This document shows, piece by piece, positions 13,638 to 44,924 of a stretch of DNA of 64,000 nucleotides. The first letter of the stretch is position 1; every line of letters begins with the position of its first letter. The DNA is from Grifola frondosa (taxonomy: Eukaryota > Basidiomycota > Agaricomycetes > Polyporales > Grifolaceae): the NCBI GenBank assembly GCA_001683735.1, contig LUGG01000015.1:434001-498000 (forward strand), in the 5' to 3' direction. The translations under genes and the position numbers were made by a program. The notes beneath the pieces were generated by a model. It worked only from the letters and a program-made list of their open reading frames with translations, did not search any database and was not told the DNA's origin.

Positions 13638-13651
13638 CATCAGCAAAATCC
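13638..13651 (+). repeat. Left terminal inverted repeat of the big transposon
   Basis: CATCAGCAAAATCC begins immediately after the last base shared by A1 and A2. The following 180 bases are rich in GTCTAA, CAGAC and TGAGAC motifs. GCACTTATAGCAACC (13800-13814) closely matches a motif at 56599-56613, inside another copy of the same terminus. Confidence 0.9.
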
Positions 13652-14374
13652 AGATATGTCTAATTTCGTCTTAAATCATCTAAATACATCTGAGACATCT
13701 TAAATTAAGATCAGTGAGACATACAGAGCTGTCAGACAATTGAGACAGTCCAGACGAAAAATTATCAGACAATCTCAGAGTATTAAGAGACCTCAAAGAG
13801 CACTTATAGCAACCAGAGAATTTCCGGTACTTGTCGGTTTAAATATTCTTGACCATCTTGTTGATCTTAGCAACTTCGTTGGCGGTCGTTTTCGTCTGTA
13901 TCCTCTCAATTGTCTTGACTTCGACCGTGCAGACCCAGAAGACCTCACAGACCATTAAGAAAAGGTACTTGCCCGTTTGCCCGTTTGCGCTCCCGCTCCT
14001 GGACATCTTCGAGGGTTCCGCTCGAGCCGCTCCCCAACTGCTTGCGTGTGAATCAAGCATCCGCGATCCGATCCCCGCAGCTCCGTCTGATGCCACAGAC
14101 ACACGGCGCCCAAACAACACCTTGTCAAAGTAATCGTCTCCGCTCCGCCCGCCCACAGTCTCATCCTCGTCCGCATCCACCACATGTAGCCGTGCGCTCA
14201 GCCCGCTCAGCCCACCGAGCTGCATGCCTGCGGGACTTCGCGAGCTCATCTCGCCCTCATGCTCCGAGCTCCGGGTTGCATTCCGTGCTTAGATCACATC
14301 CCCTTTTGTTCAGGATGATCATCTCTATCCTCGCCGTCGCACTTTGCGCATCCGATGCGCTCGTCGATTCGCCG
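13652..14374. other. Left subterminal region and unassigned captured sequence
   Basis: The first roughly 180 bases are AT-rich subterminal repeat sequence. From about 13850 to 14300 there is a GC-richer stretch with an open minus-strand frame of 136 codons (13839-14249). It contains an acidic run (residues DADEDETVG) and a Ser/Ala/Gly-rich part. It has no recognised domain and no clear splice sites, and could be another captured fragment. I see no evidence of an independent gene. Confidence 0.45.
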
Positions 14375-15860
14375 TCGATCTCTCTTCATCTTGTCACGAA
14401 TTGGGAGAAGGACATCGGATGCTTTGGTCTTACGTCGTTTCTGCCGAAGCAACTTAGTTTATGGCGTAGAATAATTGAAAGGAACTCACTGTATCGCAAT
14501 CCTCATCATCGATGACAGAGGGCATCATTGATGTCGATTTTCCACCGCCACGTCTCCGCTTGCCGCTGACTCGTAACATATGTAGGTTGGCCATCTTCCC
14601 TTTGCCGTTTTCTCCTTTATGTCCATGGGCGTGTCTTCTTCTGGTGTAGGGGATGTGTTCGACTCGGTTTCCCTGATCAGCTTGTTGGTTATCCTCCTTT
14701 CATTCTTTTCGCGAGCATGCTCAGATAGCTCTTGCAAATCTTCACCATCCTCCAAAGCCTTGTTGCAGGCAAACATCAGTATATCATCGACTTCTGTTGC
14801 TGACGAAAGCTTACCATCGCCCACTGGTCATTGCTGAGTCCGTCGTTGTAGATGACCACCGTTCTCCGGCGGTGTCCCCGACCCTCCATCTCCTCGAGCT
14901 CATTGTTGTCTTCGAAAGGTTCGTCTCTACGATAACATTCCGGTACCTCTTCAAAGTGCATGAGCGGCGGAGGCGGTTTGCCCCTGTTGTTTGCTTTCCG
15001 CCACGCTTCTAAAGTATCGCGCTCATGTTGTATGTCGACCTCGCGGAAGAGAGCACTTTCTTCATCACTGCAGGTGATAATCTCATTGATTTCATCACCA
15101 TTCGTGTCGCTTGCTTCTTCGTTCTCTTCCTCCTGATCCGCCTCCAAAATGGACCGCTAATACCGGGTCATCATTATTGTCATTCAAGCCGAGATACGAA
15201 AGCACGTACCAAAAACTCTTCCTGCTCTTCTTGGGTAGACTTGTTATCGAAGCGACCGGCCTGAATGACCTTAACGTCGACGTCCAATTTATAATGAGTA
15301 CGAGCAAATATGGCCTTTTTCTACGGGCTTCCCGGTGATGAATGGCAGGATTCGCACAACCTTTATCTTGCCAATACGATGAGCACGGTCCTGTGCTTGC
15401 AAATGCGCGTGAGGATTCCTGTTTGATACAGTATTCAGTGCAAAATTAATCGTAAAAACTTGATCGGCGCTCACCAATCACTATCAAAACTGAGAATGCC
15501 CAGGCAATACATCAGTCAAGATTCGCGAGAATGAGGCAGGCAATACATACATGCGAGCGAATCGAGGTACGCGTCTGCCTGCTTCAGCAGGTGCGTGATA
15601 CGTGTATCCTTCGCTGTGTCGATCAGCTTCATGTACGCCTCCTCATCGTCCGCCTTGAGAGCCCCCAATGCACGCCTGAGCCGCGTGATGCGATCCTGCG
15701 CTGCCCGCCCCATCGCCCGCAAGTCATTCCCATGATCGCAGACCACTCTCAGTTGCTCGACGTGCTTCTGCTTCGCCCGACGCTCCCGTTCCAGTTGCTG
15801 CTGATGCTCCAGGTTCTCCGTCGTTCTCACGTCCTGCAGCGCAGGGTTGTGCACCCGTCA
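14375..15860 (-). pseudogene. STH1/SNF2 chromatin remodeller fragment with ATPase core deleted
   Basis: Read on the minus strand, 15854-15550 encodes part of the HSA/post-HSA region of a fungal SNF2/STH1 ATPase (residues such as ADDEEAYMKLIDTAKDTRI and AYLDSLA). This is followed at once by the end of helicase lobe 2 (FDSDWNPHA, QAQDRAHRIG) and the post-helicase segment (VIQAGRFDNK, EADQEEENEEA, GKPPPPLM, LEEMEGRG). In an intact protein several hundred residues of DEXD and HELICc domain lie between these parts; here they are gone. An intron splitting the Trp codon of DSDWNPHA (GT at about 15475, AG at about 15419) and an intron at about 14505-14434 are retained, so this is not a processed copy. 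One extra A at about 15318 shifts the frame. The C-terminal bromodomain is absent. Normal STH1 remodels nucleosomes as the RSC/SWI-SNF ATPase; this fragment could not. Confidence 0.85.
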
Positions 15861-15929
15861 GAAGTCTACCTGGTTCAAGGGCAGCAGTGTCCCTTGCGTT
15901 AGGCCTCCGCCACCAGCGCATGAAGAACC

Positions 15930-18900
15930 CGATCGTCATGACCATGAGGTTGAATGCGCCTTCGGCGCATCGAATCGCGATGTAGTCGAGGATCTCTGCA
16001 ACCTGCAGGAAGCCTTGCCAGAAGGATCCCGATGAACAGAAATCCCGCGAAGCAGCTCGTTCGAACAAGTTCGCGACGAGCTAAGCATCCGCCTTCTTGG
16101 ACTCAATCGCAGATATAATGAGTTTCTCCACGAGAAGCCACCGGAGGATATCAGGGAGCTTCGTAAAGTAGACCTCGGCTTCGTTAATATCTTGGACGCT
16201 GAAGAACTCCTCGGAGTCTTCACCGACCTGCGCTTCTGCCTCGGCTTGGGTCATCGAGGGCGAAGCTACCTCTCATTCCTCATCATCCGAGTTCACTGTT
16301 GAGACAACAGGCATCGCATCAGCCTGCGCCATGTCAGACTTGAATACTGTTCGAAGGAGAAGATTGAGAGTCCGCCGTTGGGCAGAGGCCTCCGAAACAT
16401 CACTTTGGCCAAGAGGAATACTCGCTTTTTGCCTAAGAGCTCGGCTTGACTTCGATGATGCTGCAGATTCGACGGCAAGCTCGGCGTTCTGGGCGAGCAT
16501 CGAGAACATGTTCATGGAACCACGAGATTCCCATTTGGTCTCCTTTCTGGCGAAGATACTGTTCGGACCAAATGTCATCGACGCCATCTTGCTGATCTTG
16601 CCAAAATTCGAACGATCGCCTGCTTTGGGAGGCGGCCGTGGTGCAGAGTTCCCAATGGTAGCCCAACCGTCTGGGCCAGTCTGAGCGTGCTCTCCTCGCT
16701 CGCCGCCTCGTCTCGAGCTGCCCTCCCGCATGCTCACATTATGTTGATAAGTGTTCTTCTCGTTGGCAGCTTTCTCCTTTGCAGCCTGCAGTGATGACCA
16801 GTCAGCTAATCGGACAAACACAGATCATCTGAAGAGCCTTACGGTACGGCTGCAATAGTTGTCGGGCAGCAACTTGATTGCGAGTCATTTATTTGCGTTC
16901 TCGAAGTTCGATGATATCCTAAAGATTCAATCAGCTTCAAAAACCATGAGATAGACTAAATTCCCATACCTGCAGCATCGACTGCATTCCTGGATTAATA
17001 TTCGGGCTGTTGCATAGCTCCTTTGTCCGGAAAAAGTACACATCTATATGTGCACGAGCCTTGGGAGTATCGAGGATTTGACCGACGGTCATCAAAAGCT
17101 TGCACAAGCTCTCAATCTCCGCTTCCTCCGGACCCTCAACGTTGCCAAGCAGCTTCCTGACGCATTCATGCAAGGTACGCTCCGTAAGCATTTGAATCTT
17201 GAACAACTCGCCGATGTACTTGATGAGGCCAAGGCCCTAGCGCTTGGCCTTCTGCGCAGCGTAGTACTCCTCTGAGGAAAGAGCACTTTCTCCGTCTTTG
17301 CTTTCCTCAGCAGCAGCCTTCGCCGCCTGGTCCTGAGTAGCCTTTGTCGCAGCCGCCGCGGCGGTCGCCTCCATGGCTACCCACCCACGCTCGAAATCCT
17401 CCTGGCAACGATTGAGTAGATACTTGCGGAACAATTGACCACCGGCGATAGGCTTGCTCTCCGAATTCTTGATCCCATCGTCCTGGACATTCGCGCTAAT
17501 CTGCTCCATCATCTTGCGACAGAGACACGCACACATTTCCGACCAAGTCGCCTCATCGGTCGCCTTCTCGAACACGAGGCGGATGACCTGGATAAGTGTC
17601 CGACCATCCTTCTTCTCGGACCATTGTCCACGTGATGATTTGGTCCGAAATCGAGTTGAAGCGCTCCGCCAGTTTGTTGAGCAGACCCCGGACCTTATGA
17701 TCTACCGCCCTGGAGAATCCGCATCGGGAGCCTGACTCTTCCTGCCAAGACTACCTGTTGCCACCAGTTCGCAGAAGCTCCCAGAGGCGCCACGGCTTCC
17801 TGGGACAGTCCACCAGATAGTGATGATCCCGAGGCAAAGGAACTTTGCCCAGACAATCCAGCACCAACTTTGTTCTCTTTGTCGCGCCGGCCGCCTCGCT
17901 GGCTCCGTGTCCGGCCACTGCCCATAGGGTGGTCGCCCGGACCGCCTTGGCTAGAAGAACACACCATAGCTGAAGGCTGACTGAACGGCATACCAACGGG
18001 GCCACCCGACATCAAAGTGAAACGATTAGACATCGGAAGTGTTCTCTGCTCGACATCTTGCCACTCGGCGGAGGAACTGGCCTATCAGTTGAAGGGATTT
18101 GCAGGCTTGGGGAAGCCTAAGAGACTACGGCCTATGGAGGCCTGACGGGCAGTGGTAGAGGTGGGAGGTGGCATGGATGTGGAGGATGTGCAGCGACCTG
18201 GACCACCATGGCTCACAGTGCAATTCTGGTCAGCAGGTTCGAGGCCAATTGCATCTAGTGGGGAAGAGAACCGAGTTTCTCCTTGCAGATGGCCATGAAT
18301 TGTAGGAGGAATTCGTGGTCGTATCTAAACGAGACCATGATTTGAGCATATAGATCACAAGGAAGATTTCCGAAAACTTACCTGAATTTTGCCAGCTTTG
18401 CATTCACGTTGAGTTCGACCTTAGGACTTTTGATGCCTTCAGGCGTGCGATAGAGCCAAGATCTTCGATGACCTGAGCAGTGGCTAAGGCAGAAGGGAGT
18501 GGGGCGGGAATGGGAACCTTTGTCCCTGATAGATCCAAAGGACCACGCTGACGCTTCGTTGTCTCCGGATGCACCACTGTGTCGATGTGTAGCGGACCCT
18601 TGTCAGAATCCTTATCCTTGGCCTCTTCCTTTGCAGCGTCGTCCTCTGCCTCCTCAGCCTCGGGAGCCTCCTCGACTTTGCCCTCTCCTGCAGCCTCGGC
18701 CTTCAATTCCTCGGCTTTCTGGGCCGCCTCCTTCGCCAGACGCTCCTCCTCTGCCTTGTGCGCCCGCTCCTCTGCCAGCTGCAATCGCTCCTTCTCTTAT
18801 CCTTCCGGAGTCATTCTTTGTCTTCTTCCCCTTACGCAGCTTCTCCTCTCCTCTTCCTCTCTTTGTAACTGTTCCTTCTCCTCCGCCTCCGTGCGCGTCC

Positions 18901-19035
18901 GCTCCTCTTCCTCTTCCTTCGCTCTTCCTCACGCTTCTTGTTTTCTTCCTCTTCAGCTGCATGGCGAGCGATCTCTTCTGCCGCCTTCTTCCACCACTTC
19001 TTCTCATTCTCCTCCGCAAGCTCATCGCCTTGGCC
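15930..19035 (-). pseudogene. eIF4G fragment: eIF4E-binding/middle region to MA3 domain
   Basis: On the minus strand this reads as the body of fungal translation initiation factor eIF4G. In order it shows: a charged Glu/Ala/Lys-rich helix region (about 19000-18600); a segment with IEDLGSI followed by FRYDHEFLLQFMA (about 18480-18290, the conserved stretch before MIF4G); a Ser/Gly-rich linker with basic RRGGRRDKEN; the MIF4G domain (17575-16970, with FEKATDEATWSEM, GGQLFRKYLLNRCQ, FKIQMLTERTLHECV); a linker (GPDGWATIGNSAPRPPPKAG); and a degenerate MA3 domain (about 16220-15930, EDSEEFFSV, YFTKLPD, QGFLQVAEILD). Frame changes occur between nearly every block and several introns remain. The start is missing; a separate N-terminal piece lies at 22690-24050. 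It directly follows actin and directly precedes STH1 sequence, so it is a captured or rearranged fragment and not a working gene. Confidence 0.85.
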
Positions 19036-20379
<1,344 letters not shown>

Positions 20380-20390
<11 letters not shown>

Positions 20391-22725
20391 ACATTCGCGG
20401 GGTCCTCTGCGAGAAGAACGATCCGATACCTGCGCCCCATGAGCTCAGCGCAGCTTTGACGGGTTCTACCGGAGGTGGAGGCTGTTGGTTCATTACGATG
20501 CTCAGCGGGCGTATGCCCTTAGGTCGCTGTAGTGGGGTGGGCTCGGGCTGCACGCTCCGCGTGAGCTCCACTGAGCCCTTCCGCGACGTCTCAGCCACTG
20601 ACCGCGCATCTGACTTGCTGACCTCCATGGGACTGGTCGACGTGCTCCCCTCACCGCTCAGGTCGGAAGTAGAGCTTGAGTTGCGCTGCAGCCACCGCCC
20701 GCGCATGCCCTCGACGGCTTTGAAGAAGTTTGTGGATCCTGTGGTGATTGTGCGTGAGATCGCCTCGCGTGTGGGCGCCAGCTGCTGCTCTAGCTTCAGC
20801 TCTTGGATACCCTCGGATAGCCATAGGCTGATGTCAGTGATGACGAAGGGTTTCTCACTGCAAGGATGCCTAGAGGAACGACGCAATTCCCATGAGCCAG
20901 AGGCGGTCGATATGCAAGGATATTCTCTTACCGCGCTTCGATGAGGTCAAACAAGAGAGGGTCAGTTACCCGATCCCAGACTTCTTAGTCTTCTTGAATT
21001 CCTGAATCCATAATGGATTGAAGTCTTGTATCGAGTTCTTGCTATACCTGAACCATCAGTGATCATTATGCCGCGGTCTTGTCCCTTGCTCAAGAATGCG
21101 GCATATTTGACAGATGCTAGAGCCCCAGTGATGTATTCCTCGAACTAACAGTGATATGATCAGTGAGGGAACAGAAACATCCAAGAAGAATATTCCAACC
21201 TTTTGCCTCAGATAGTCATCGCTTCCCTTGAAGCTATATGCACAAATCAACATCATCAGTTTCAAGGAAGTCCACGGTGACGTACAGCATACCCAATGGC
21301 CGGTTAGGGTCCTCATCATAGCCCTCATTTACGTCTCGCACAATATCATCCATCCACTTCCTGTCGGCGGCGGTCAACCCGGCCGAATGCTCGAGTCGGG
21401 GATCCTTGAACTCCAGCGTGCCTGTCTCGATCTAAAGAAATCAAAGATGTTGAGCGCAGCATATACGTAGCATATCATGAAAAACAAACATTAACGAGTA
21501 GGTCGACCTCCTTCTGCTGCGTTACTATCGAGTTCGTACTCCCACACAGCAAGCAGCTCATGTCTTTCAACATGTTGAGCTGCTGTAAAGGAAGGTACGG
21601 CTGGAAGAATGCATCCTGGTGCACAACGCATATCAGCGTTATGGCTTTAAGCCAAGGAGCGAGTAACTCACTTTGCCAAAGAGATCAAGAGGTAGCCCGA
21701 CATATGCCATCATGCTCTTGGGATCAGATGTGCGGAGCGAGGTTGGCCTGGAAAGCGTCTGTGCACATGCAGCTAGTGGAGGAGAGCCGCAGTCATCCAG
21801 ATTCTGAAGCAGACTTAGAGACAGCACGTATCAGGAAATAGGTAAAGCAAAGCAGCGGAGGTCATGTTTACCGGGGACACGGATGATGAGTGAGTACTGA
21901 TATGTGCACAACCATTCGACTGGATGGCCAAAGAACATTATCTATGCGGATGGTCAGTCAACATACTACTTACGATAGGTCATTAACGCTTTACCCTTTT
22001 CTGCAGCATTAACGCCTTCAGCAGTACGAGTGTCTGCTGTCTGAACGTATGCACTAGCTCTCGCCTAAATTACGTCAGTATCAGCCACATGTGCTTCAAA
22101 ATAACACTTACAAGCTCGTGCCTACGTGCACTTGCCATCAGACATGCGCACTCACATACAAAAGAAAATGTGAACTTACCTATATACAGTCCACTCTCAG
22201 TAAGCTGGCCTCATAACGAATGCTCCAACGATGAGTAGAAGTCCTCCAGGATACTCGTCTCGCTGAAGTCGCGCTGAGCAAATAGCGCATGAGTAATCAC
22301 TCCAAGCCTGTCGCTAGCATTACAGATGTCTCAGATGATTCAAAGGTTTGAAGGGCGTGAGAGACACACCGAATGGGTCCGAAAATGGTTCTTGAAGCAA
22401 GAATTACGACAGCCTTCTGAACAGTCGAACGTGTCACGTCCGGATCCTTGACTAGCAACTCTGACATGCTTATTTGTCAATTGCATCTGCAAATGCAATG
22501 AGAACAGTAGAGCATTCGATCAGAGTGATACTTACGAGATGCCAAACACGGTTATTGGATTGGGTGATGTCGGCACCAGGTGAAAACAGGAGTAATCCTC
22601 GGTGGTCTGCGAATCTTTGTGAACCAAACACTTTGTTTGGCAAATAGAGCGCGCTCACGAAATATGCACCATCAGGCAGGGCAAGAAATGGGAGAATCTT
22701 TACGATCTCCTCGTCTTCGAGGGGT
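20380..22725 (-). pseudogene. AVL9 (DENN-type late secretory protein) pseudogene
   Basis: The minus strand matches the Avl9 family, which acts in exocytic transport from the Golgi. Recognisable pieces in order: LPFLALPDGAYF and TEDYSCFHLVPTSPNP (about 22715-22560); LLVKDPDVTRSTVQKAVVIL (about 22465-22400); LLQNLDDCGSPPLA (about 21830-21770); TSNSIVTQQKEVDLLVN-like and FKDPRLEHSAG (about 21520-21400); RKWMDDIVRDVNEGYDEDPN (about 21375-21310); FKGSDDYLRQK (about 21235-21200); and a C-terminal Ser-rich tail with FVITDISLWLSEGIQELKLE (about 20850-20790). Many introns are kept. The exon after the first intron pair carries TGA at 22479-22477, where the family has Arg (Cys-Asn-Arg-Gln). The 5' end is fused to eIF4G N-terminal sequence and the 3' end to actin. 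The order of all conserved blocks is native, so one contiguous gene segment was copied. Confidence 0.82.
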
Positions 22726-24050
22726 CATGATCATTGGAGGCGACACAACAGGATCCGCCTTCTTGAATCGTTCTAAGTCAGCTTTAAGCCCGGACCCATC
22801 CTTAATAGTGGCTTTCCGTGGAACGAACGTGCTCGCACTCGAGTTGAGCCGCTCAAGCCCGCCCCCTGGTGCAGTCGTCAACAATGGTGTGGAGTGGCGA
22901 TGACACACTGCTCAGGCTCGTTGTGTGCGTGTGCGGTGATGGCGTCATATGTGGTGGATGGCCTGTGCTGGGAATGGCGAGGGTAAGCACAGGCGTGCTG
23001 GGCGGGTGAAGTTGGGGAGGTTGCGCAAGGGGTGACATGGGCATGCCACTCATCGGAGGACCGGGTGGACCCTGTTGCAGGTGATATTGTGGAGAAACTG
23101 GCGGCGGTATCCACTGCGGAGGATATTGGACATATTGTTGATCCATGGCCATGCCGGGATACGGATACTATAGTAGTTACATCATTGTCAGTCATTGACT
23201 CGATATTCAACCCAATATACTTACATAGTATCCAGGCCACCCTGGCACCGGAACAGGCTGAGGCAGCTGAGGCGGCCCCATCCGAGGACTCGGCATGCCC
23301 GCTGACATCAGCGTCGGTACGGCACCCCACCTGGCCCTCCAGGAACACCGGCCAGTCGCCCGTTCACTGTGCCGTTGGGTATCTGACGAGGGTATGACGG
23401 CGAACGAGGGACGCCGCCGGCGCTCGCCCGCATTCCATTTAGCTGTGGACTTAACGCGCCGGGAACGAAAGGAGTGTATGAATGGGCATCTGATTGAGAA
23501 GGCTGTGGTTGCTGATGCATACCCTGACCCTGAGTCAGCATTGCCGAGGGAGGGAGGGACGCCGGGCGAGTTGAGGGAGAGGTGACATTAGATGGCGTTG
23601 AGGAGCTCGTCGCAGTCGACGATCCCCTGCTCGGCGACTGGAAGCATCTACTTTCTGGTGAGGCTTATGGGCTGGAGCGGAAGACGACGCTGCAGACGCC
23701 GATGCCGACGCTGGCGGCACAGATAGGGAGCTAGTCGATGGCGATGAAGTCGAGGTCGAGGTGGAAGCTACTCTACCATAAGGTACCGAAGAGGGTGACG
23801 CTTGCACAGAGCCAAACTGCTTGATACTCTCTGACTTGACTGGCGGAACAATTGTAGGAGAGGATGATATTGGCGCGGCTATGTCGTCTATTGGGCCAAG
23901 AGTCACGGATGAACCTATATGGGTGGGAAAGCAAGGTGAGATGGCGAGAATTTACGCACTCCAGCATCGAAACATACCTGATTTTATGTGTTGTGACGAA
24001 CTACGGGCACCTGCAATGCCATCCCTAAACAATATGTCTTGATCAAGATG
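22690..24050 (-). pseudogene. eIF4G N-terminal fragment
   Basis: The minus strand shows the low-complexity N-terminal part of fungal eIF4G. An exon ends with SSQHIKSG (about 24040-23980). After an intron it continues VTLGPIDDIAAPISSSPTI, then Ser/Thr/Ala-rich sequence (23906-23600), a Gln/Pro-rich region (about 23540-23310), MAMDQQYVQYPPQWIPPP and further proline-rich sequence (23152-22900), and finally LNSSASTFVPRKATIK, the conserved motif that precedes the charged central region. Shortly afterwards (about 22725) the sequence becomes AVL9. The missing continuation of eIF4G appears 3.7 kb away at 19035. So either one eIF4G copy was split by an AVL9-actin block, or two eIF4G pieces were acquired separately. 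Frames change at several places. Confidence 0.75.
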
Positions 24051-25119
24051 CTAGGCCATCTAGCGTGCATTGAAGCTATCTGCACAGTGAGCTGTGAGTA
24101 GGAAGAAACATAGGAAGGAGCTTACTGTTTGCATCTTGAGAACGAGCTCACGTGTCGTGCATACCTCATCTCGTCATTGCTTATAGGCATGGTGCGGGTG
24201 ACTGACGGCTATAATGCTCAGTATCGTCAGTGTCAGTTAGACGCGAGCTCGACTCACCATCGCAACATAGCAATTCCACTCGCACCCCGCATGAATTAAG
24301 AGCACCGCGGATTAAGCACTATCTCGTAGTCATGAGATAAGTGTGGTGTTCGTGCGCTTTTACAGGGCCCACGCGAACCCGCGGTCATTGAAGCACTAGT
24401 AGAGCGTTGAAGCCCGGGTCAAGGCGACCACAATCGGAAGATACACCTAGTGCGTCGCCCTACAGCATACCTGCCTAACGTCCTGAAGAGCGCCTCCGCC
24501 TCGTTTTCAATCAGCCATTCCCCTGTTGCGCTTAGCACTGCCGTTTGCGAGGGGCACGACGTTAGTCTCGAGAAGCACTGTTCGGTTCAAGTGGAAGTGG
24601 AGAGCGGCCGTCTGCGCGGAGAGGGTGCAGGATTAGCAAGTAGCTTTGGATGTAGGAATGCTGAGATTTTGAGTTGGGCGTGGAAGTCGTTGTCGCCATC
24701 GTTTGTGGTGGATTCTGTGTTGAGGTGGTGGGAGTAGTTAGAAGAGAGTGAGGCGCCCACGTGTCCTCTCACTTTGCCATCTCCGACATCTGAACTTGCA
24801 GAATCTATGTTGGCGATATGTATCCTTGTGAGTCACTATATTTTGATACTGCGCAAGTTCTCATTCTCATGTTTCTGCAGCCCAGCAGCATGCGATCAAG
24901 ACATGCCATAAACTCACAGAGCTCCTCCCGCCGAACAGAATAAAGTCAGTTGTCAGTCATATTTACTCGTTGGGTGCTAGCCATATAGAACTGCTATTGT
25001 AGCCCCAGATTGCACTCTTCGCAGGGCCATTCAGGAATGACATGACCGCGCGCTGAGCTTCCAGAAGGTGAGCGCTGATGCCCTTGTCCTCACTCCTTCC
25101 CCAACTTCCACTAATTCTC
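24051..25119. other. Unassigned interior of the big transposon
   Basis: There is no recognisable gene here. Short ORFs on both strands lack domains. The stretch 24430-24740 has an open plus-strand frame of 95 codons that is Ser/Leu-rich and unremarkable. By position it may contain further captured or intronic sequence. Confidence 0.5.
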
Positions 25120-25330
25120 TGAATGCACCGTGCTGTCGTTCTGTCGCACGTCAGGACCGTGGACATGGACGTTGACCCTCGCAGCTGACCACGGCGATAA
25201 GCAGCACCTCACCCTCACCCTCATCAACACGCCGTCCCTGGAATACGAGGACGACACCTCATCCCAGCGGACCGTATCCGAAATCCTCAGGCATGTTGAT
25301 AGCGGATTCGCCGAGAACGTCGAGGATGTG
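25120..25330 (+). pseudogene. Septin GTPase exon fragment
   Basis: The plus strand encodes HLTLTLINTPSLEYEDD, SQRTVSEILRHVDSGFAE and NVED, then a GT splice donor (GTGAGT at 25328). This matches the septin region that contains the G3-like INTP/DTPG motif and the following helix, preceded by a degenerate VDVDPR-type strand. The P-loop and the rest of the GTPase are absent, and one frame shift separates the first few residues. Septins assemble cytoskeletal filaments at septa and bud necks. This is one exon without its partners and cannot be functional. It lies opposite in strand to the neighbouring eIF4G, AVL9 and actin pieces. Confidence 0.7.
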
Positions 25331-25800
25331 AGTCCTGCTCTGTTACTGCGCACACCTAACAATGAACGACATGCTCCTTCCAGCCCAATAAAGCCCTTTC
25401 CGGTGATCATCCGAGAGCAACCTATCGGCGCAGCTGTTGATCCCAGAGCTTGCCAACCTCGTATGGTTAGTGCCCCCGCTGTGGTTGGACCAAGCAGCTG
25501 CACTGCACCGTGCGCAGCTGACGAAGGACGCAGTGGAGATCATAGACATCGGGGAGGCAACTGCGATCAACTGTCGCGCGCGCGAGGTCATGATATGCAT
25601 GCTCGGCCAGGGCGTGCGCGGGGCGATTGTGCACGGGAAAGGTGCAGGCATAGAGACTATCGGGACAAGGTCGCACGAGGGCGGTAGCAGTACTGAGGTG
25701 CTCGCTGCGGTGAAGCTGGAAATGGAGGAAATGGAATATATAGAGTCGGGCGACGGCGTCGACGGTGGGCGAGCAGGATTACATGGAGTAATAATGTTGT
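25331..25800 (+). other. Unassigned exon-like sequence next to the septin fragment
   Basis: An open plus-strand frame (25437-25802) reads LVWLVPPLWLDQAAALHRAQ and TKDAVEIIDIGEATAINC. It may be spliced after the CAG at about 25383. I cannot assign a family. Its position after the septin exon, with a plausible acceptor, suggests either a diverged continuation of the same captured gene or another fragment. Confidence 0.35.
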
Positions 25801-25873
25801 AGACAACAATAAAGTCGGTCGTGATGCCCGGCCGGACGTGCGACGCGGCGATGTCCAGCACCTCACGCACTAG
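25801..25873 (-). pseudogene. Methionine aminopeptidase exon fragment
   Basis: The minus strand encodes VREVLDIAASHVRPGITTDF. This matches the conserved entry segment of type 1 methionine aminopeptidases, the enzymes that remove initiator Met from nascent proteins. It is preceded by a TAG splice acceptor (about 25875). Only about 24 codons are present. None of the metal-binding Asp, His and Glu residues, which lie further downstream in the family, are included. It is clearly a fragment within the big transposon. Confidence 0.7.
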
Positions 25874-26219
25874 CTACAATACAGGGTGTGATTCATAGAC
25901 AGAAAAATGTACATCTCTAGCACAACCAGAGGGATGGAATGCCATTCGCATCTATCTCGTCTTCATGCCGGCCATTTTCCAACTGAGTGTCCAGTAGTGT
26001 TTTGACTACAGATATGCAATGCTGAGCAGGCTCTCGAGCTACCTGTAGCATTGAGGGAATCGACGTAAGAGTTAACGGATGGGAGGGGATGGGAATGTGG
26101 AGAGCAGAGAGCGGAGATTTATGCATGTGTTATACGAAGAGTTGTAGTGCCTAGAATGCATATGAGCGAGGAGTACCGAATTGACATCAAGCTACTCACG
26201 GTTACAGGCTGCTCAACAT
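25874..26219. other. 3' flank of the Plavaka transposase gene
   Basis: No gene is seen. A minus-strand frame of 69 codons (25917-26126) lacks recognisable features. The segment lies between the transposase stop codon and the captured fragments. Confidence 0.5.
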
Positions 26220-29200
26220 TCAAAAAATGGTCTCGAATGCATGGTGATCCACATATCTATTCACATAGAAGTGCTTGTACGCATCGAGGGCATTGTGTGC
26301 CGTGACATCGCGGGGGACAGCTTGTTTTCCATAGACACCAATAAGGTGAGCAGCTCGGACAATGCTATCGAGATGAAGCACAGAGAGAACGGGAGTGCCA
26401 CGCTTTGACTCTGGGCGAACGATGTACATCCCTGTGTCTTCATCGGGCTCCTCGGAGATGCGTTCGAACCACTGGACTAGTGCACAAGGATACACAATAC
26501 CACCAAATTTGAAGGAGAAAAAAAGGCGTATACGCACTACCGCAAGAGCCTGGATTCCATCGAGGTCCGGCTGATAGTTAACAAATGCGCAGTCGAAGCG
26601 CGGTGCAATTCCGAACCACATTGGTGTAGCACGAATGTGTTCGCGGTGCATTCCTCCAACGCCGGAGGGATCACTCGGAGCGTAGTATGTTGATGCAGCG
26701 GAGAAGAAAACTGATATCTTCTCGTCGAATTGGGGGCAATCCTGCAGTGAGACCTCAAGTCCCGGAAGCGCACTGTTCGGATTCAGCTGGTCATACAGGA
26801 ATCGGCGTATTAGCTCTTTCAACCGAGGCTGTTTGATATAGTTGCCGAGAGCCACTGCTGTACGTGGAAGCTTGGTCTCTGTAGGGCAAACGAATGAGCA
26901 TTTGCTGTTCACGAAGATTCAGAACTTACGCGGCGTAGCGGCCATAACAACGTATGCGAGAACAGTGGGTCCCGGCACGGAGCCATCATCATCTTGTGCT
27001 TGATCGCGCTTTCGGTGTGAATCTGTGGTGACTGGCATTTCTTCTTCCATGTCCTCGTCGGGATCTGAGGCGAAATTTAGTTCCATATGCGATTCAAATA
27101 AAAACCACTTACGAAGCCTAAGATACTCTTCCAGCAAACAAGGTTGCTCGAGCATCCCTCGGTCCGCAAAGTCAACGCGAGATGCGGCAAGTTTATCCAC
27201 ACGCTGGTTTGTCACCAACATTTGCCCTAGTTCATTAAATTTGTTAGAACGCCTGTATGGATCCTTGACCGCCTCGATGTGCTTTGATTCTGTTATCGAT
27301 GAGCATATACCGTTGGGAGCGGCGAACGCCCATATAAGACGGCGATAGTGGCGAAGCGAGTGTTGACGAGGAAGATTGAAGTTTTCTCGTACGCCAGTGG
27401 CCCGAAAGATTCCCCGATTGGCATAGAAGCGCTCCAAGGCATCGTCAAGCTGGCGCAGAGTCCTCGGAGTGTGAACATTGCGGCGAACAAGGTAACAGAA
27501 CTCGATGAATGCCCGAATCGCCCGTACCATTTCTCGGGGTACGTAGCCAACAATTGCGGCAAGGTAGACCTGATAGCATGATTATACAGTAAGCTATGGC
27601 TATGTAATCAATGGATGGCTGCTCACCTTCATTAAACCCTTTGAGTCATCACCAGTCCACTGCTTGAAGCCTCGGCCTTCGTGGAAGTTCCGCAAGCCAG
27701 AGAAAGGTGGCACAACAGCAATACTGTACATTCTAAATAAGTGACTTCGTTGCAAATGAAATGGACTCACCGGCGATCGATATCTGCGAGAATCACCTGG
27801 GCCTGTGCATTTCCGTGCTCCTGAACAAGATATTGCTCAACCCAATCCACTAAGTGATCCTTGAAAGTTCCCTTGATTAATTGATGAAGGATATCCGGCG
27901 CTATCAACTCATGAATATCAGCGCGGGGGAAGTCGTTCGTGAACGGCTGTGAAATGATTGCAGTCAGCAATCAAGAATACCAGAATAAAGGTCCCCAATG
28001 CCGCAAAGTCATTGCTCCCACCGACGATGCAGTGGAACGTTTTCAATCCCGGCCTCTGCCAAGAACCGGATGCATGAGACTTTGACGAGCACGTCAAAGC
28101 GCCACAGCGCCATGATCACGACGTGCATGAAGAGCTGGCAGCGGCTTGCAGAGACCCACACATGGTAGCTGATGTGGGCAGGCACCCCGCATCACCTCTC
28201 AAGGAGATGATGTGATGAAGATAATAGATTGAAACGTACCACGATATCCCCAACAAGGCCGTACTCATTCCAGAGCACGCCAAGCTCAAAATGTGCAACT
28301 AACACCTCCGTGTGTTCACGCGTTCGACGCCCGCCGCCAGCGCCATCAAGGTCGTTATTGAGGGCTGTACACCTGAAATATAACATTAGACATGTCTGAA
28401 AGAATCAAAATATGTAAGAACATACCTGGGACACCATCCTTGAACGATACAAGCCAGGAGGGCTTGCTCTGGGTAGTCCGCGATGTAAGGGCCCAAACCA
28501 TAAATCACACGCCTAAAATGTCCGTCGGCACAACGTGTGACCTCCGGAGTTGTCATTCCGGGTTTTAATGGTTGAAGAATGCGAGAAAGGGACGTATGAA
28601 ATAGTTGTCGTCGGAACTTGCGAAAGTTTGCATCATTGGCGTAGTCGCGATGTGCTTTGCAAACCTCCTGTGAGCTACGTAGACTAACGACTCAAAAGAC
28701 TTACTTTTTGGTGTAGCTAGAAAGCCGATTAAGGCGACTGCGTTGCGATGCGCACGGCGTACACTATTGTTCACATTCCCGATTGATGCATACAAAGGAT
28801 AATATTCGTTTTGCCCGGTCGCGACAGACACAGTGGTCTTGTCGCTTCCCAGGATAATTGGGACGAACGCTGCTCCTGCATTTGTGGCATCTTCCGCAAT
28901 GATGTCCTAGTCAAATTTCGGTCATTGTATTCTTTGCAGGTAAGAAAATACATACTGCCTGTTTCCACGCCCAGTCTCCGGACATGAAATCCTTGAGCCT
29001 ACGTTCCCCATCGACAAATTCACGAAACGGTCCATAATTGATCTCACCGTCGAAGTCGGGGTTAGCGAGCATGTTCTGAACAACCGTACGCGGATTTCGG
29101 AACCAAACATCGTAGCTGCCCGTCATCCATTGTGGCACATTTTCATTGGGAACCTCGCCAGAATACCTCAGTTCGAACGACTCCCACTTGACGTCCGTCG

Positions 29201-30076
29201 AATCAATGGTATGGTAAAGGTCCTTGGAATTTGCGAAAGGTCCATGATCATCATACTTGAGGAGTGTAGTTGTCCAAAGGTCCATTAGTTCATTGATACG
29301 TTTTGCTGGCATCTGGTCCCGCGTATAGAGCAGCGCGGCAGCTTCAAACTCGACGCGATTCCTATAAGGTGACCAGTCATCCGATAGTGGCGCAGGCGGG
29401 AAAGTGGGAGGAGTATCTGGTGGCAAGTAGTTTCCGTCCTCGTCGCAAGGCGTACCTGAGGCACAGAAAGAAATGATCAATGCAAAGTTAAATAACGCAC
29501 ACATTCTGAAAACGTACCGTCGATATGCTCGTGATATTCGCGGCTTAACCCTTCAGGTACCGCATCATCCAGAGGATGATCTTCCACTACATGTGCCGGA
29601 GCGTCGTCATCACCCTCTGAACCCCATAGACTCGGCTCCTTCGAAAACTCTGAACGTGGGCTCAAACGATCCAAATCCTCTCCTTGAAGATCGAAATCCA
29701 AGGCAGCCACAGACGGAGTGATGCTGCGTTCATCGTCCTCGCGATTTTCGTTCTCGTCTTCATTGATATCGTCCATTACGATGTCTTCGGGTGGGATTGC
29801 TTGGTCGGAATACTCGGTGGCGGAATGGTATTCGCCAATTGCAGCTCGCTGTGCCGACATCATAGCGCCGTGGTTATCTTCAAATCCGCTGTAGTCAGAC
29901 GACATGTCGGATTGAGTGTTAGCTGCAGCAGTGAAAGATGGGTGGTGTACGCGGAAGTGTAGAGTACGTCCGGCCTTGCTTTTGAAATAACGGTGACATT
30001 TGCGGCAGAGGTACTCTACTGGATTGCGGACGAGTCGGCGTAGAAGACGCGGGGAAGGTTCCGGTGAGCTGGACAT
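26220..30076 (-). CDS. Plavaka-type (CACTA-like) transposase
   Basis: The gene encodes the transposase of the element. I chose the ATG at 30076-30074 because it opens the exon with an N-terminal C2H2 finger (LCRKCHRYFKSKAGRTLHF, with Cys-x2-Cys and His-x-His-type spacing, residues about 23-45). An acidic linker follows. About eleven exons join with good GT-AG sites, for example 30076-29518, 29455-28956 and 28906-28705, and in later exons the frame continues without breaks. Conserved family segments include WKQA/DIIAEDATNAGAAFVPII, LGSDKTTVSVATGQNEYYPL, GPYIADYPEQ, CTALNNDLD, PDILHQLIKGTFKDHLVDW, and the C-terminal HLDSIVRAAHLIGVYG and YFYVNRYVDHHAFETIF-like tail. Plavaka proteins are found in Agaricomycete genomes and are related to En/Spm transposases with an RNase H-like DDE core; I did not map the acidic triad. 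The gene is the best-preserved ORF set of the element, so it may be active or recently active. Confidence 0.85.
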
Positions 30077-30271
30077 AATTGTAGGACCTTTGGGAGATAT
30101 AGATTGAGCTTCAGAACACGAAAAACAAAGTAAATTCACGACGTACGCTCGCGCGCTCGCTCCATGGTCGAGACACACACCAGTCATCGGGAGGTTCTAG
30201 ACGCCAGGTTGCATAGGCACTTGATGGACATACCGTAAAGTTCAACTTTCAACTACTACCTTCACCCCTCC
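30077..30271. promoter_or_regulatory. Divergent promoter region of the transposon gene pair
   Basis: This 195-bp gap separates the start codons of the minus-strand transposase and the plus-strand companion gene. Shared regulation of the two genes is inferred from the head-to-head layout. I see no strong TATA box. Confidence 0.45.
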
Positions 30272-32454
30272 ATGCCTCAGACTCGACCTACTAACAAGGA
30301 TCGACGCCCTGGTGAGGTGGACATGAAGCGCAAGCGTCGCACCCACGCTGAAATCGAGGCGGGACTTGAAGATGAAGGCGGAGAACGACAAGAAAAAGAA
30401 GGCAGGCCGGAAAGAAAAGGAAGCCCATGTTGCAGATATTGAGGACCAGATATCGACGAGCGACGCCCAAGCATCTGCAGCGCGTGTCACACATGCTACG
30501 AAAGGGCTTGTTCGCAGTGGCGCCATTGCTGATATATCCAGGCCCCCGAAGAAGGATAGGCGTCCTCGTAAGGGGAAACAGAACGAGTCTGCTGAGACGA
30601 GTGCCGACAGCCGAGAAGATGGCCCGTATCCAGATGTGCCGACTGACATCGACTACACCTCGGAGTCAGATGCGACACCGCTCGCGAAGAAGGTGAAGAA
30701 GGACAGTGGGACTAGGAAGTCCATCACCGCAGCTCGTAAGACTCCTTCCGATCCCTCCGTCAACGAAGCGCAGAGCGCTGTAGCAGACAAGTCGAGGATG
30801 TCGCCTGATATGCCTGACAAAAAGAAGTGAGTTGAAGAGAACGGTTAGCACTCACCAATTATCACGTCTTGACCTTGTCGTAGAGCTCAGCAAGTGCGCG
30901 CAACATCCGTGGACGGGATTTCGGGCACTGCCAAGAATTGGACATCAGCAGTCGATTGGAACAATGGAGTGCCACCTACTAATTGTGACACTACAGCCTC
31001 CAACCCAGACCCATCGATTCCACCCGCCAGCAAGAAGGCCCCGAAGCTGAAGGCTGCTTTACCTACCATCCCGTCTACTCCTCCACCAGCGAAGAAAGGC
31101 ACCAAGCCGCCCAAAGGCGCGGTGAAGGAGACCGTGCCAAAGACGCCGTTAAATGTTCAGGAAAGGGGAATCATTAGTGATGATGAAAGCGCAGAACAGG
31201 ATGCAGCTATGTCGAGTCCGGAGAAGAATGGCAAGCGTTTGACGAGTAATGTGAGTGCGAACGGACTTACTGTATTGATGTCTAAGTGGGTTGTCACATC
31301 CAGGGTATAGTGACTGTCACGTCCAAGTCGCAAAGCGGTTCCAGCGTCAAAGTCGATTCCGACGTTCAAGTCAAGGTTGAGGAGTCCGATGAAATCAAGC
31401 ACAGCGACACCTCGAAGGACAGCAAAGATTCCGAAGGGACCTACAAGATGCCTGCGGAGCTGAGTCACCGCTTCAAGAGGAGATTCATGCCGACGGTCAT
31501 CAAGCTTGTTGGAAGACTGAACAATCCGTGGTCGTTCGTCGAGTTAGGTGCAAAGCAGCTCGATGCCTCTATCCAATTCCTCGAGATACTCTGGTTCGAG
31601 ATTTATGGGCCTACCGTTCCTGTTCCTCAGCCGATAAAGCCGTTCTGCAAATTGGTAAGTCCATGTCCTTGAGCAACTGTGAATCACTGACCACTCTCTT
31701 ACTCCGCGGTAGGTGACCCAGGAACTGGCCCAATGGCGTTCCGCTATGGCCAGCGCTGCGCTTCGTCTCTTACATGACTATTTTCTCACTGACCCTACAA
31801 CCGCCTTTAATAATGAAGAGCGTGCTGAGGAAGCGCAAGACATGCTGAAAGACCTATGGTTCCTCTTCGAGAAGGCTCATGCCAAGGTACGTCACATCTT
31901 ACCATCTCGAAAAGCAACTGTGATGCATTTATATATTTAAATAGCCTTATACGGGCCTCTTCCGATCGGCGTTCGTCTTGCGAACTATGACTCATTTCGT
32001 TTCCTCAACCCATGGTGCAATCGAGTTCTCCGATCACAACATCACCTCCGTCAATGTATTACCCGTTGGTGCAATCGCCTTGACCGCAGCTGCAGTAAGT
32101 TCACATGCTCTCGGTTCATGTTGATTTCATCGACTTTGTTTTTAGGTTGAGCGCGCTGTGTGGTTGTGGGCCGAGGAACGCGTCACCATAAGCAGTAGCG
32201 GTCAAATTGATTATCCAAAGAGGCCCTTCAACCCGAAAGCCCCCAAAGAAAGCAAGTACCACCACCACTTCAGCGACCTTCGATGGGGCAGTGTGACCCG
32301 TGCGTACGTTGTCTCGGCAAAGAACCTTGCGGCCTCGAAGGTCTCGAAGATTATGGATCTGGCGCGACCGACTTCCACCACAATGTCGGATGATGACGAT
32401 GACAAGGGCCGTGCAGCGCTCGTGGATGTTAGCTCGGATTCCGAGCAAGAGTAG
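30272..32454 (+). CDS. Transposon companion protein of unknown function (ORF2)
   Basis: The ORF starts MPQTRPTNKDRRPGE at 30272 with a Lys/Arg-rich region (KRKRRTHAEIEA) and a basic, coiled-coil-prone, low-complexity N-terminal half of about 200 residues (KKAGRKEKEAHVADIEDQIS). A conserved globular C-terminal half follows, spread over several exons: ELSHRFKRRFMPTVIKLVGR, QELAQWRSAMASAALRLL, TGLFRSAFVLRTMTHFVSS, VGAIALTAAAVERAVWLW, SDLRWGSVTRAYVVSA. It ends with an acidic tail (DDDDDKGRAA, SSDSEQE). Splice junctions near 31656/31714, 31887/31945 and 32095/32146 fit. One extra G in the GGG at about 30360-30362 breaks the frame early and may be a sequence error. From memory of Agaricomycete genomes, proteins of this layout recur beside Plavaka transposases; a DNA-binding or transposition-accessory role is inference. 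Confidence 0.6.
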
Positions 32455-33223
32455 TGGTGTGCAACTTTGTTTCTCATCAAACTGTTCTGACTGCTTCTTA
32501 CCAGGATATCTCAAGCTGCTGAATACCCGGCGGGCACCGCGTCATCACCGTCTTTTCCATCTCTCCCACGGACATATTTCTCTCTACGCTTCTCTCTGTC
32601 GTACGCATCCACTCCCACTCACGAGAAAACCCTGATATCTTGTCCTGGCTTTTGTTCGCTATCTTCTCTTGAACTCCGGCTTCTGTATGTATATGCTTTC
32701 TGAGTGTTCTGAACAGCCTGATTTCATTATGCCCACATTCTCGATCGTCTTAGCAGTCTCAATTTGGTCTCGCGCTTCTCCGATGTATCTACGCTCACTC
32801 GCTTTCTGAGTGTTCTGGACCATATTTTCATTGTGCCCGCATTGTACGCGTCTCGATCTTCTTTTCGTCTTAGCAGCCTCACGTCGGTCTGCCGCTTCTG
32901 TCCGGTCTCAGGCATATTTTGTAATACCTATGTTCTTTCAACGAATTTTTATATGGGCACTCTTCTCACTCTGAATGGTCTGTGGGTGCTTTAAAATCTG
33001 AAGGAACTAAGATCTCTTTGCTGTCTGAGCTGTCTGAATAACATTTAAATGATTGTATTAAGTTGTTGGTCTGAAGCCTCTAAATTTGACATATGCAAAG
33101 ACTCAAGACCAATTAGACAGTGTCAGAAAGTACAGAGGACGAGGGCTTATGAACGCTCTGAAGCGTCTTGCGGTTCAGATGCTCAGACGAAATAGACAAG
33201 TTCAGACCAGGTAAGACGGTTTC
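32455..33223. other. 3' flank and right subterminal region of the big transposon
   Basis: The first part is 3' flank of the companion gene. It includes an imperfect tandem duplication of about 106 bp (about 32695-32900, each copy starting CTTTCTGAGTGTTCTG). The last roughly 220 bases before the right terminus are full of TCAGAC, TGTCTGA, AGACAG and AGACC motifs in both orientations, mirroring the left end. No gene is seen. Confidence 0.65.
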
Positions 33224-33237
33224 GGATTTTGCTGATG
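33224..33237 (-). repeat. Right terminal inverted repeat of the big transposon
   Basis: GGATTTTGCTGATG is the exact reverse complement of the left 14-bp terminus. The next base, 33238, is the first base homologous to B1 (4268). Confidence 0.9.
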
Positions 33238-36200: not shown

Positions 36201-38279
36201 ATGGGACAGAACCCCGCCATATCCTGCTATTTCCCTCTGGCACATCCCGCCGGTGTACCTGACTTTCCTTTTCCGGAAATTTATACAACTTCAAATGCTT
36301 CCGTTCCCAGTTTGTCTCCGCGGAATACGCTGCGACGGTCTTATGTCCTTTGCAACAATATATGTTTCGTTTGTCTTCAGTCTTCATGCTTTCACGCTTT
36401 CTCTGCAATCTACATCTTCAAGTTCGACCAGCTGGTATTGTGCCTGAACAAGCCTCGACACATGCCCAGGGCGGTCAACGATTGTACCTGGGTCCTGGCG
36501 TCTGAGTGCGTAAGTTTGCTGTTTTCGTCTCCGGTCAGCTTCAAGGCAGTATTGATTGGAGATTTAACTTGTTGGTTGCGAAGCAATATTCTATACTAGC
36601 TTACCACGCCGAACTTTTCCCAGAGAATAGGTAGGCCGCGGAGGCTCATATAGTGAATTCCAAGTCGCTGATCTTGGCCAAGAGTGGCTTCATGCTTTAA
36701 AGAATGAAGTGCGCAGCCACTTCATTCGAGTATACTCACTCGAACTCGACGCACTCGTCGCAGGACACTTGCTTGGTGTGTGTACATTCGTCATCCTTGG
36801 GAACTGACGGACATATAAATAGGATGCAGTGACAGCAGCAAGATGACGCTGTACGTATATGCCAAGTTACGCACACGTCCTCCCAGATACACCCATTCTG
36901 TCGGTATATCGAGCTGCGGAGATAGTCTGTCACTGCCACCACGCAGGCCAACGTTCGACTACCCGAGCTTCCTAGAATTCAACGGAAACATTCTTCTCGC
37001 GCGCACGTCCTTTCCTAAATTAACACATGGCCAAGAATATCGCCCACGGAGGTTCACTGGCTCAGCGTGACATTACCCCGAACAAGAGGATCCGCCACTG
37101 CGCTGAAAAGTATGTACTTCTCCCTTTCATATCTGTGTTTTACGTCACAAGGACATCCTGCTACTTATGCCATGATCTAAAGACCTTGTTGCGATCATCT
37201 ACGATATCTCGTATTATTAAAGATATCGGTCCTTGTGGTATGGTCCTGTTTGGCATGAGCCTAAGCAGCAATATTGTCATGGGAAAGAGACCGCCCCGTG
37301 CTTGGACCGTCGGATTGCTTTGAGTTGAAATTGACCTTGCACGAACAGATATCTCCAACCCCAGGCATCGTCGCACTCGGTACCAAAACATTTCAGTACC
37401 TATTCTCGACGGAGCCCGTGCCGATGGTCTTCGTCTTCATGCACTCAATCCTTCCCGTCTTGACGTCAAACACGGGGCTCCGCGTGTCAAACGCAGCCCT
37501 GCAACGCCTGGCTTCTTGGTACCACACTGCAAATAGACAGGAAGGCGTCGCCGGTACGGTGGCTGTACCCGTCGTTCTGGTATCCTTCCTTCGGCACGGG
37601 ATTGACCTCTGCGTCGCCCGTCGCCTTTTATCTCGAAGCGTGCGCTGTCACTCGATGTGGCAGAGGAGAGTGTCCCGACATCGTACACTTTGAATCCCAA
37701 TAACATTTGGCGAGGACACGGCCGACGCACTACGAGCGTAGGGCGGAGCACCACATAGCGTGTGTGTCCTGGGTAATTCGACCATATATCGACGCACCTC
37801 CGACCATACGAAAACGGACTAGCCCATTTCACTAGTCGTCGAAGCCAGAAATTCTGTATCCCGCCTGTGTTTTAAACACACGGAAGCCTCGGGGTTTCTC
37901 GCACAGACGTCATGGAACGTCGAGTGGAGGGCGTTGCGCCGACTCGAAATCAGCTGCAAGAAGCGAGGCGCACGGTGATAAGAGAGTGCGAAGGGACGGG
38001 TGGGTCGCCAAACGCCGCATTCCTGCGTGGCGGAGGCATGTATTGTCCGCACTTTTTCCATAGTACTTATTGTTGACATAGACATCTGATTAAATTTATG
38101 GTCTACGCCGCGGACATGTCGCAGCAGATTGGGGTCAGAGAGTCACGAGATGGATTTCGAAGGGGAGCGCGAGTGCCACTGGAAGCAAACACAGGTAGAG
38201 GGGAAGAAGGGAAGAATATCGGCAGATGCATCATTTGTATCGCCCGCCGTCGTTTCGCAGCGCTCGTCGGCATGAAAAT
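33238..38279. repeat. Long dispersed repeat block B, copy 2 (B2)
   Basis: This is the second copy of block B, in the same orientation as 4268-9253 and about 5 kb long. It differs by numerous transitions (CG in one copy against CA or TG in the other is common), some indels of 1-30 bases and no large insertions. Like B1 it has no recognisable coding content; the ORFs on both strands are frame-inconsistent between copies. The right end runs into an inverted piece of the CSC1-like gene. Confidence 0.9.
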
Positions 38280-38750: not shown

Positions 38751-38967
38751 TCACGTCAGTATTTGATGAATGTAAGAGCTCATGGGCGGAGGCATTACAC
38801 AATCTATATCATCCGTAATTCAAATAAAGATTGACACACCTTCCATATCATGAGAAAATAACTAGTTTGTTTCGCTAATGGTTGAAGGCAGAGCCGTTTT
38901 CCGCTTATTTCAAAACCAAACTCCAGCAGGGCCTTCCAGACGTCGTCGCAGGTCCAGCACGTCGAAT
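38751..38967. other. Intergenic, 3' of the YIH1-like gene
   Basis: This is AT-rich sequence between the inverted CSC1 fragment and the YIH1-like stop codon. Nothing specific is seen. Confidence 0.5.
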
Positions 38968-44900: not shown

Positions 44901-44924
44901 GGAATTAAATAGTGAATCATCGTA

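Follow-up and report, generated by a model that had tools for sequence, protein, structure and literature searches.

We analysed a 64,000-nucleotide stretch of the Grifola frondosa genome (contig LUGG01000015.1, positions 434,001 to 498,000; hereafter the window) and found that positions 13638–33237 form a 19,600-bp DNA transposon with perfect 14-bp inverted ends. With a probability of roughly 0.82, it is a large PlavakaB element acting as a gene-capturing transposon of the Pack type. The stretch from its left terminal module to the transposase 3′ end is a patchwork copied, with introns, from six host loci on six contigs of the same genome (39.06 Mb; its contigs are numbered C1, C2 and so on below). 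The element thus holds non-transposon sequence with identifiable parents between its terminal inverted repeats (TIRs), and the host gene pieces make up ~58% of its length (listed blocks, 11,335 of 19,600 bases, small inner gaps counted).

Are the borders of the element real? An earlier note, made from the letters of the window alone, had placed perfect inverted ends at the limits of repeat homology, and both prove exact. The 14-mer occurs at 62 sites genome-wide versus 0 for its reversed control; with ≤2 mismatches the numbers are 955 versus 106. Four such sites fall in the window, a count reached by 0 of 100 shuffles (mean 0.56). Moreover, the insertion site lies in a tandem duplication, 12964–13637 being 99.1% identical to 1681–2355 and 33238–38279 91% identical to 4268–9253. 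Flank homology to the other duplication copy ends at 13637 and resumes at 33238 (2355 and 4268 in that copy), exactly at the element ends; the borders are therefore real.

13638–13651, plus strand: left TIR, CATCAGCAAAATCC, exact inverse of 33224–33237; 62 exact genome copies, control 0
33224–33237, minus strand: right TIR, exact inverse of 13638–13651
2356–4267, unstranded: 1,912 bp present in the unoccupied duplication copy and absent from the insertion site (window self-comparison)

The duplication as a whole spans ~10.7 kb (window 1–9253 and 10684–13637 plus 33238–38279; identity 99.1%, 95.6% and 91%). The element occupies its second copy, and the 1,912 bp are missing beside the element. 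Elsewhere in the window, a single Plavaka-like end with ≤2 mismatches stands at 56541, and open frames at 59489–63884 resemble a long terminal repeat retroelement (zinc-knuckle and reverse-transcriptase-like motifs, judged by eye).

PlavakaB elements are CACTA-related cut-and-paste DNA transposons of Agaricomycotina. Their ends, 5′-CATCA..TGATG-3′, and target duplications of 2–3 bp define the family in the part of its description available to us (PMC12730594). The termini found here match this end sequence, and the transposase carries the corresponding domain. As previously noted, a companion gene accompanies the transposase, and both are set between terminal modules common to other elements:

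26391–29881, minus strand: gene of the Plavaka transposase, exons by prediction, some of the micro-exons being doubtful (PF18759, E = 6.5e-29, at 28911–29552)
30342–32451, plus strand: companion gene (DUF6532), six predicted exons (PF20149, E = 4.2e-10)
13638–14308, unstranded: left terminal module (subterminal region), 88–95% identical to C7:1771720, C19:892337 and C13:99195, matches that stop at element base 618–671
32819–33237, unstranded: right terminal module, common, whole or in part, to C37, C39, C2, C7, C10, C14:561627 and C12/C41

Gene models came from a home-made splice predictor, whose 2-bp and other micro-exons are doubtful. We compared both genes with the related element in C37, counting differences at codon positions 1/2/3 in frames chosen exon by exon, over nine of the eleven predicted transposase exons. 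These numbered 34/30/138 over 834 codons of the transposase and 42/33/86 over 597 codons of the companion gene, a third-position excess showing that purifying selection acts on both. Two-base-pair target duplications were found at 6 of 12 elements with both flanks compared (0.75 expected, binomial p = 4e-5, the length of 2 having been picked once the PlavakaB definition was known). These twelve comprise nine long elements and three of ~214 bp, the C41 element being excluded as a repeat of the one in C12.

The short elements, with ends at most one base off the Plavaka TIR, are found at C1:538255–538469, C1:829174–829388, C1:865235–865448, C1:2445230–2445442, C2:293326–293539 and other sites, and window 56541, with its single end inside the window, is grouped with them. 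Two of the three examined carry 2-bp duplications, and they are likely miniature inverted-repeat transposable elements of Plavaka.

From left to right, the cargo comprises STH1/SNF2 (two pieces), eIF4G, actin, AVL9, the rest of eIF4G, and a peptidase/RRP42-like piece with septin inside:

14383–15553, minus strand: STH1/SNF2 piece 1, introns kept, 88% identical to C1:353201–354373 (parent with HSA, SNF2 and bromodomain)
15552–15931, minus strand: STH1/SNF2 piece 2, ~1.66 kb of the gene skipped before it (C1:356037–356152, 356224–356486)
15939–19037, minus strand: eIF4G 3′ part, introns kept, 87% to C14:813474–816615 (parent MIF4G 3.4e-49, MA3 7.6e-9)
19039–20374, minus strand: actin piece within the captured eIF4G, introns kept, 89% to C25:139405–140764 (parent Actin 6.7e-69)
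20373–22718, minus strand: AVL9 piece inserted alongside actin, introns kept, 89% to C17:551708–554103 (parent model Avl9 7.3e-70)
22723–24068, minus strand: eIF4G 5′ part, belonging to the same captured gene as 15939–19037, 88% to C14:816658–818014, 42 bp lost between
24062–25106, unstranded: Xaa-Pro aminopeptidase/RRP42-like piece, rearranged and partly inverted, 69–81% to C7:933396–935121
25147–25411, plus strand: septin piece within the peptidase piece, 89% to C10:371054–371321 (parent region Septin 3.1e-9)
25412–25656, plus strand: second part of the Xaa-Pro aminopeptidase, 76–77% to C7:934116–934219 and 934400–934558
25659–25771, plus strand: piece of the RRP42-like exosome gene, 74% to C7:933293–933396

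The left 12,243 bases of the element have 77 matches in the genome, sibling elements counted, versus a single 96-bp match for a host stretch of the same length (38800–51042). The earlier list of genes largely stood: STH1, eIF4G, actin, AVL9 and septin were matched to parents, the STH1/SNF2 parent spanning C1:353201–356486 and the eIF4G parent C14:813474–818014 (its first exon placed by hand using the open reading frame). A methionine aminopeptidase, also on that list, was rejected. That piece matches nothing in Pfam at E ≤ 1, its comparison with solved structures gave weak, unrelated matches only (best E = 0.01), and its parent locus is of the Xaa-Pro type (AMP_N, 1.3e-19). We read the divergent neighbour of this parent, which matches RNase_PH below the Pfam cut-off (0.00012), as RRP42-like. 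Septin and RNase_PH are the weakest assignments of the cargo, and divergence from the parents is greatest for the peptidase pieces (69–81% identical). Both pieces thought to be eIF4G are indeed eIF4G, and since the parent is continuous where the window has actin and AVL9, they are one captured gene split by a later capture rather than two. The pieces had been described as lying mostly on the transposase strand; STH1, eIF4G, actin and AVL9 do, and the opposite strand carries septin along with part of the peptidase/RRP42 piece.

Pieces and parents align through predicted introns, with 219 differences among 1,906 aligned non-coding bases. Because introns were retained, copying must have occurred at the DNA level, as had been proposed, and retroposition is ruled out. 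At eight of the nine junctions shown, pieces abut with 0–7 nt of overlap or filler. With both parents in hand, three of the nine overlap by 2–7 bp, one is blunt, four have 1–7 unmatched bases and one has 40, which comparison with siblings identified as decayed peptidase sequence. Template switching guided by microhomology is only weakly supported. Where it adjoins AVL9 (20373–20374), the actin piece starts right at the predicted 5′ splice site of an intron. This may be chance, and a splice-competent AVL9-actin fusion is conceivable.

In what order were the pieces acquired? In the C37 and C7 siblings, eIF4G keeps the 42 bp absent from the window and has no actin or AVL9 between its parts; in C2, an eIF4G copy lying right of the insert also keeps the 42 bp. 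C37 and C7 are likewise continuous across the septin site, without septin. Because siblings keep these sites uninterrupted, the patchwork evidently grew stepwise, with peptidase/RRP42 and eIF4G first, and actin plus AVL9 and septin later. The capture of STH1 has no assignable place in this order, since STH1, together with 293 bp of eIF4G, is bypassed by a junction common to C37, C7, C16 and C38.

The search for further copies with the same ends, suggested earlier, returned elements with overlapping or different pieces. We compared ten long elements with both ends present: that of the window, C37:7795–20107, C7:104095–130615, C2:844430–859128, C12:1329625–1347433, C10:1579524–1587163, C14:556182–561627, C24:41288–45271, C24:412331–416316 and C2:2713774–2727211. 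The interior of the C7 element, which by its coordinates holds ~14 kb of foreign insert, was read up to 109548, and C39 was read in part. Host gene pieces, recognised by parent or by Pfam, were identified in seven of the ten (window, C37, C7, C2:844430, C12, C10 and C14:556182), so that gene capture extends beyond the single element first described. The remaining three contain abutting pieces that match other single loci of unassigned nature: those of the C24 pair match C7:389894, C12:1080165, C3:1060871 and others at 87–91%, and those of C2:2713774 match C13, C12 and C1 at 65–76%. The longest predicted product of the C24 cargo has no Pfam family. Pfam searches of predicted sibling cargo gave Myosin_head, ABC_tran and ArsA_ATPase above cut-offs and TPP_enzyme_M and Exo_endo_phos below them; Adaptin_N and glycogen synthase occur in elements delimited in part, which end at C19:892337 and C37:32951. 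The C12 cargo consists of abutting pieces matching C6, C3, C4, C1, C13 and C18, and is also present at C17:9794–14553 and C1:3215107–3219850. C41 (16408–34216) is probably a redundant contig, because it holds the same 17.8-kb element in the same flanks as C12 (99.8%).

Loaded elements have moved, because the C24 copies are near-identical (3,973 of 3,989 alignment columns) at unrelated sites (their ~280-bp flanks are dissimilar); one copy is bordered by an 8-bp direct repeat. C37 and C7, on different contigs, both carry eIF4G cargo. The evidence for mobility thus comes from these two pairs and not from the window copy itself. Since no transposase was found among the predicted genes of the C24 copies, they were presumably moved by a transposase made elsewhere. 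Four elements (window, C37, C7 and C2:844430) have their cargo past the 3′ end of the transposase gene, on the side away from the companion gene. Exceptions are C12, with pieces on both sides, and a C19 relative with eIF4G inside the transposase region.

Several observations accompany these comparisons. Older Plavaka relatives have eIF4G between (C19:724548–724962) or beside (C2:3419034–3419432) parts of the transposase region; in C19 the piece is 83% identical to the parent and perhaps a separate capture. A 2.25-kb multicopy repeat (C10:1582989–1585240, inverted ends of ~640–780 bp) is nested in the C10 cargo. C10:269243–269731 and C1:719693–719971 match both flanks of the largest C24 piece without the piece itself and may be pre-capture copies.

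The pieces in the window are decaying. They contain 12 new in-frame stops (STH1 0 and 1, eIF4G 6 and 1, actin 1, AVL9 3), and all six blocks have indels that shift the frame. Both argue against host-like proteins from these pieces, a possibility that we rejected. In actin, changes private to the window are flat across codon positions (15/18/18), and those private to the parent are biased to third positions (2/2/14). The captured piece therefore decays freely while its parent is constrained. Window-only eIF4G changes are also flat in the stretch covered by four copies (25/30/28).

The eIF4G pieces of the siblings behave differently from one unchanged capture. In C37 and C7 they are mostly 96–99% identical to the parent (93–94% nearest the peptidase junction), compared with 84–93% in the window. 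Third-position differences between C37 and the parent number 36 of 843 (sites with three states omitted) versus 138 of 834 between the window and C37 transposases (Fisher p = 4e-17). The C37 piece is closer to the parent than the age of the element allows and therefore cannot be one unchanged capture that predates the split; a single old capture kept unchanged by all siblings is ruled out for C37, C7 and C16. Several features of the sibling copies emerged: (i) C37 and C7 diverge from the parent by mostly 0–6%, climbing to 9–12% toward the common peptidase junction; (ii) differences from the parent shared by C37 and C7 are 3/11/40, and changes private to each copy are flat; and (iii) parent-only changes in a five-way comparison are 0/1/9. 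We rejected the idea that the C37 copy is selected for its coding function, because neither C37–C7 differences (4/9/7) nor C16-only changes (13/14/11) are biased to third positions. The bias of the shared differences therefore predates capture or rewriting, or arose partly on the parent branch. In the simplest reading, a functional eIF4G allele overwrote most of an old piece, which then decayed neutrally. Thus, eIF4G in the sister lineage was probably rewritten from the living gene, and possibly recaptured.

The main alternative to rewriting, that the close eIF4G of C37, C7 and C16 is a separate second capture, is less likely but deserves real weight. These copies start at element base 2595 and not 2302, as a new capture could; yet the inner eIF4G-peptidase junction is common to the window element and C37/C7, and the rise of divergence toward it fits a rewritten tract within an old capture.

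What is the mechanism of capture? A break or an excision gap inside the element may be filled by strand invasion of host genes, with template switching into them, the captured pieces being joined by end joining with little or no homology. Break or gap repair with template switching has been proposed for animal Pack-TIRs, in the part of that study open to us (PMC8277862). Selection would preserve the transposase and the companion gene, and captures would survive mainly downstream of the transposase because those that break either gene are lost. Later breaks in a captured piece could be repaired from the living parent gene, rewriting the piece.

A number of results weigh against capture by this element as we have drawn it. 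No capture was seen in the act in this genome. The window element has no 2-bp target duplication (flanks ca/gg), and the 1,912 bp are missing alongside. Overlaps of 2–7 bp were found at only three of nine junctions and were judged without a chance model. Donors are mostly on other contigs; the eIF4G parent alone shares the contig, 346 kb off, and no bias to nearby donors is apparent, unlike in animal Pack-TIRs, although contigs may share chromosomes. The left third of the C12 element is a reversed relative of C14:556182–561627, ends included, so C12 may be two fused elements. Finally, window-only eIF4G changes show a third-position excess over element bases 2595–5400 (65/79/110, p = 0.002) and 2595–4353 (39/41/63, p = 0.02), and window-parent divergence in eIF4G is uneven, mostly 13–20% in the first 1.2 kb and mostly 5–13% beyond. 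Because of this unevenness, the window copy may also be a mosaic. The excess itself is expected if C37 was rewritten from the parent, and a diverged donor would give the same.

The latter possibility, that another species or a diverged lineage supplied the elements or their cargo and that the distance of the window pieces reflects their donor and not their age, is improbable, though not negligible. Consistent with it, the window eIF4G is 7–15% from both the parent and C37 while the left module is 2–5% from C7:1771720, third positions of the pieces differ at 14.3% versus 7.7 and 7.6% at first and second, and the window-only eIF4G excess persists outside the four-copy stretch. However, the flat window-only changes in actin and four-copy eIF4G, together with the silent excess on the actin parent branch, are as expected for capture in this lineage.

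We consider it very unlikely that the fragment block has a separate origin, as a Helitron, segmental duplication or old pseudogene cluster around or beside which a Plavaka element inserted, its ends coinciding by chance. Diverged eIF4G copies at C14:571–614 kb without an exact TIR indicate that eIF4G duplicates occur outside recognised elements, as does an STH1-eIF4G junction (C10:266399–266701). In contrast, the same terminal modules enclose different cargo in several elements, the C24 copies are alike over their full length, pieces included, and the uninterrupted sibling sites indicate that pieces were added inside existing elements. The earlier note had named a block flanked by other transposon ends as the refuting pattern; of the eight inverted pairs found, only the TIR pair lies at the element edges, and none brackets the block at both its edges (~14383 and 25771). 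Helitrons lack TIRs and have 5′ TC and 3′ CTRR plus a hairpin; the element has perfect TIRs, although no systematic Helitron scan was made. The actin-AVL9 insert ends ...CTTCgagg, with 42 bp of its target lost. An assembly artefact of chimeric contigs is barely credible: redundant contigs such as C12/C41 do exist, but junctions recur on independent contigs (one in C37, C7, C16 and C38, others in C2 and the window) with 1–15% divergence, and the pieces differ by 8–27% from their parents.

As separate observations on the first of these loci, C14:571786–613719 holds several diverged eIF4G copies, ~66–90% identical to the parent patchwise and with no exact Plavaka end there, and the public protein P0105 maps to one of them. 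The junction in C10 is a stray one, outside recognised elements.

How does a Pack-type Plavaka element, our preferred reading, compare with known systems? Plant Pack-MULEs capture host sequence between TIRs and have identifiable parents. They are named in the accessible part of the animal Pack-TIR paper (PMC8277862), where animal Pack-TIRs similarly hold host sequence between TIRs, with identifiable parents and some multicopy families. Those belong to another superfamily and kingdom; here, six donors contribute to one element, the transposase is kept, captures are nested with empty sites, and one piece was apparently rewritten by its parent. In the same portion of the paper, 59.8% of Pack-TIRs are intrachromosomal (PMC8277862), whereas the donors here are mostly on other contigs. 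In fungi, hAT elements with a histone H3 gene are described in the available text on Pyrenophora and Pseudocercospora (PMC3538342, PMC6710886); they too are TIR transposons that take up and copy a housekeeping gene, but a single one, in a hAT and in ascomycetes, and not many gene fragments in a CACTA-related element of a basidiomycete. DNA-transposon gene capture was also examined in a mushroom, Pleurotus ostreatus, whose Helitrons, which lack TIRs, are reported without host gene capture in the part of the source we could consult (PMC4289320). The PlavakaB description, as far as its accessible part goes, agrees with our elements in ends, transposase and the 2-bp duplications seen in half of those compared, and differs in reporting TET/JBP gene acquisition and no host-gene patchwork, and in that the window element has no duplication (PMC12730594). 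Capture by inverted-repeat transposons is therefore already known in plants, animals and, for histone H3, fungi. Titles and abstract openings in a literature search that mostly excluded subscription papers contained neither gene capture by Plavaka nor a fungal inverted-repeat transposon with a multi-gene patchwork.

Our findings carry a practical warning. Two public Grifola frondosa proteins labelled eIF4G, P0001 and P0107, fall on transposon cargo (C37:16277–19488 and C7:104714–106593), which affects any gene count or gene tree built from records of this kind. More broadly, Pack-type capture, for which plants supply the best-known cases, here reaches a fungal superfamily related to CACTA, in a mushroom that is eaten, and sibling elements reveal some of the order in which pieces were acquired. 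Because a single genome contains empty sites, parents that are still functional genes, pieces in decay and a transposase under constraint, the mechanism of capture can be put to the test. A bolder proposal, which we put forward tentatively and regard as somewhat doubtful, is that Plavaka constitutes a standing gene-shuffling system in which nearly every long element is a patchwork, cargo exchanges with living parents by repair, and near-identical gene pieces carried by the elements may give chimeric or antisense RNAs. If so, Plavaka cargo would be periodically rewritten from, and could itself rewrite, essential genes such as eIF4G.

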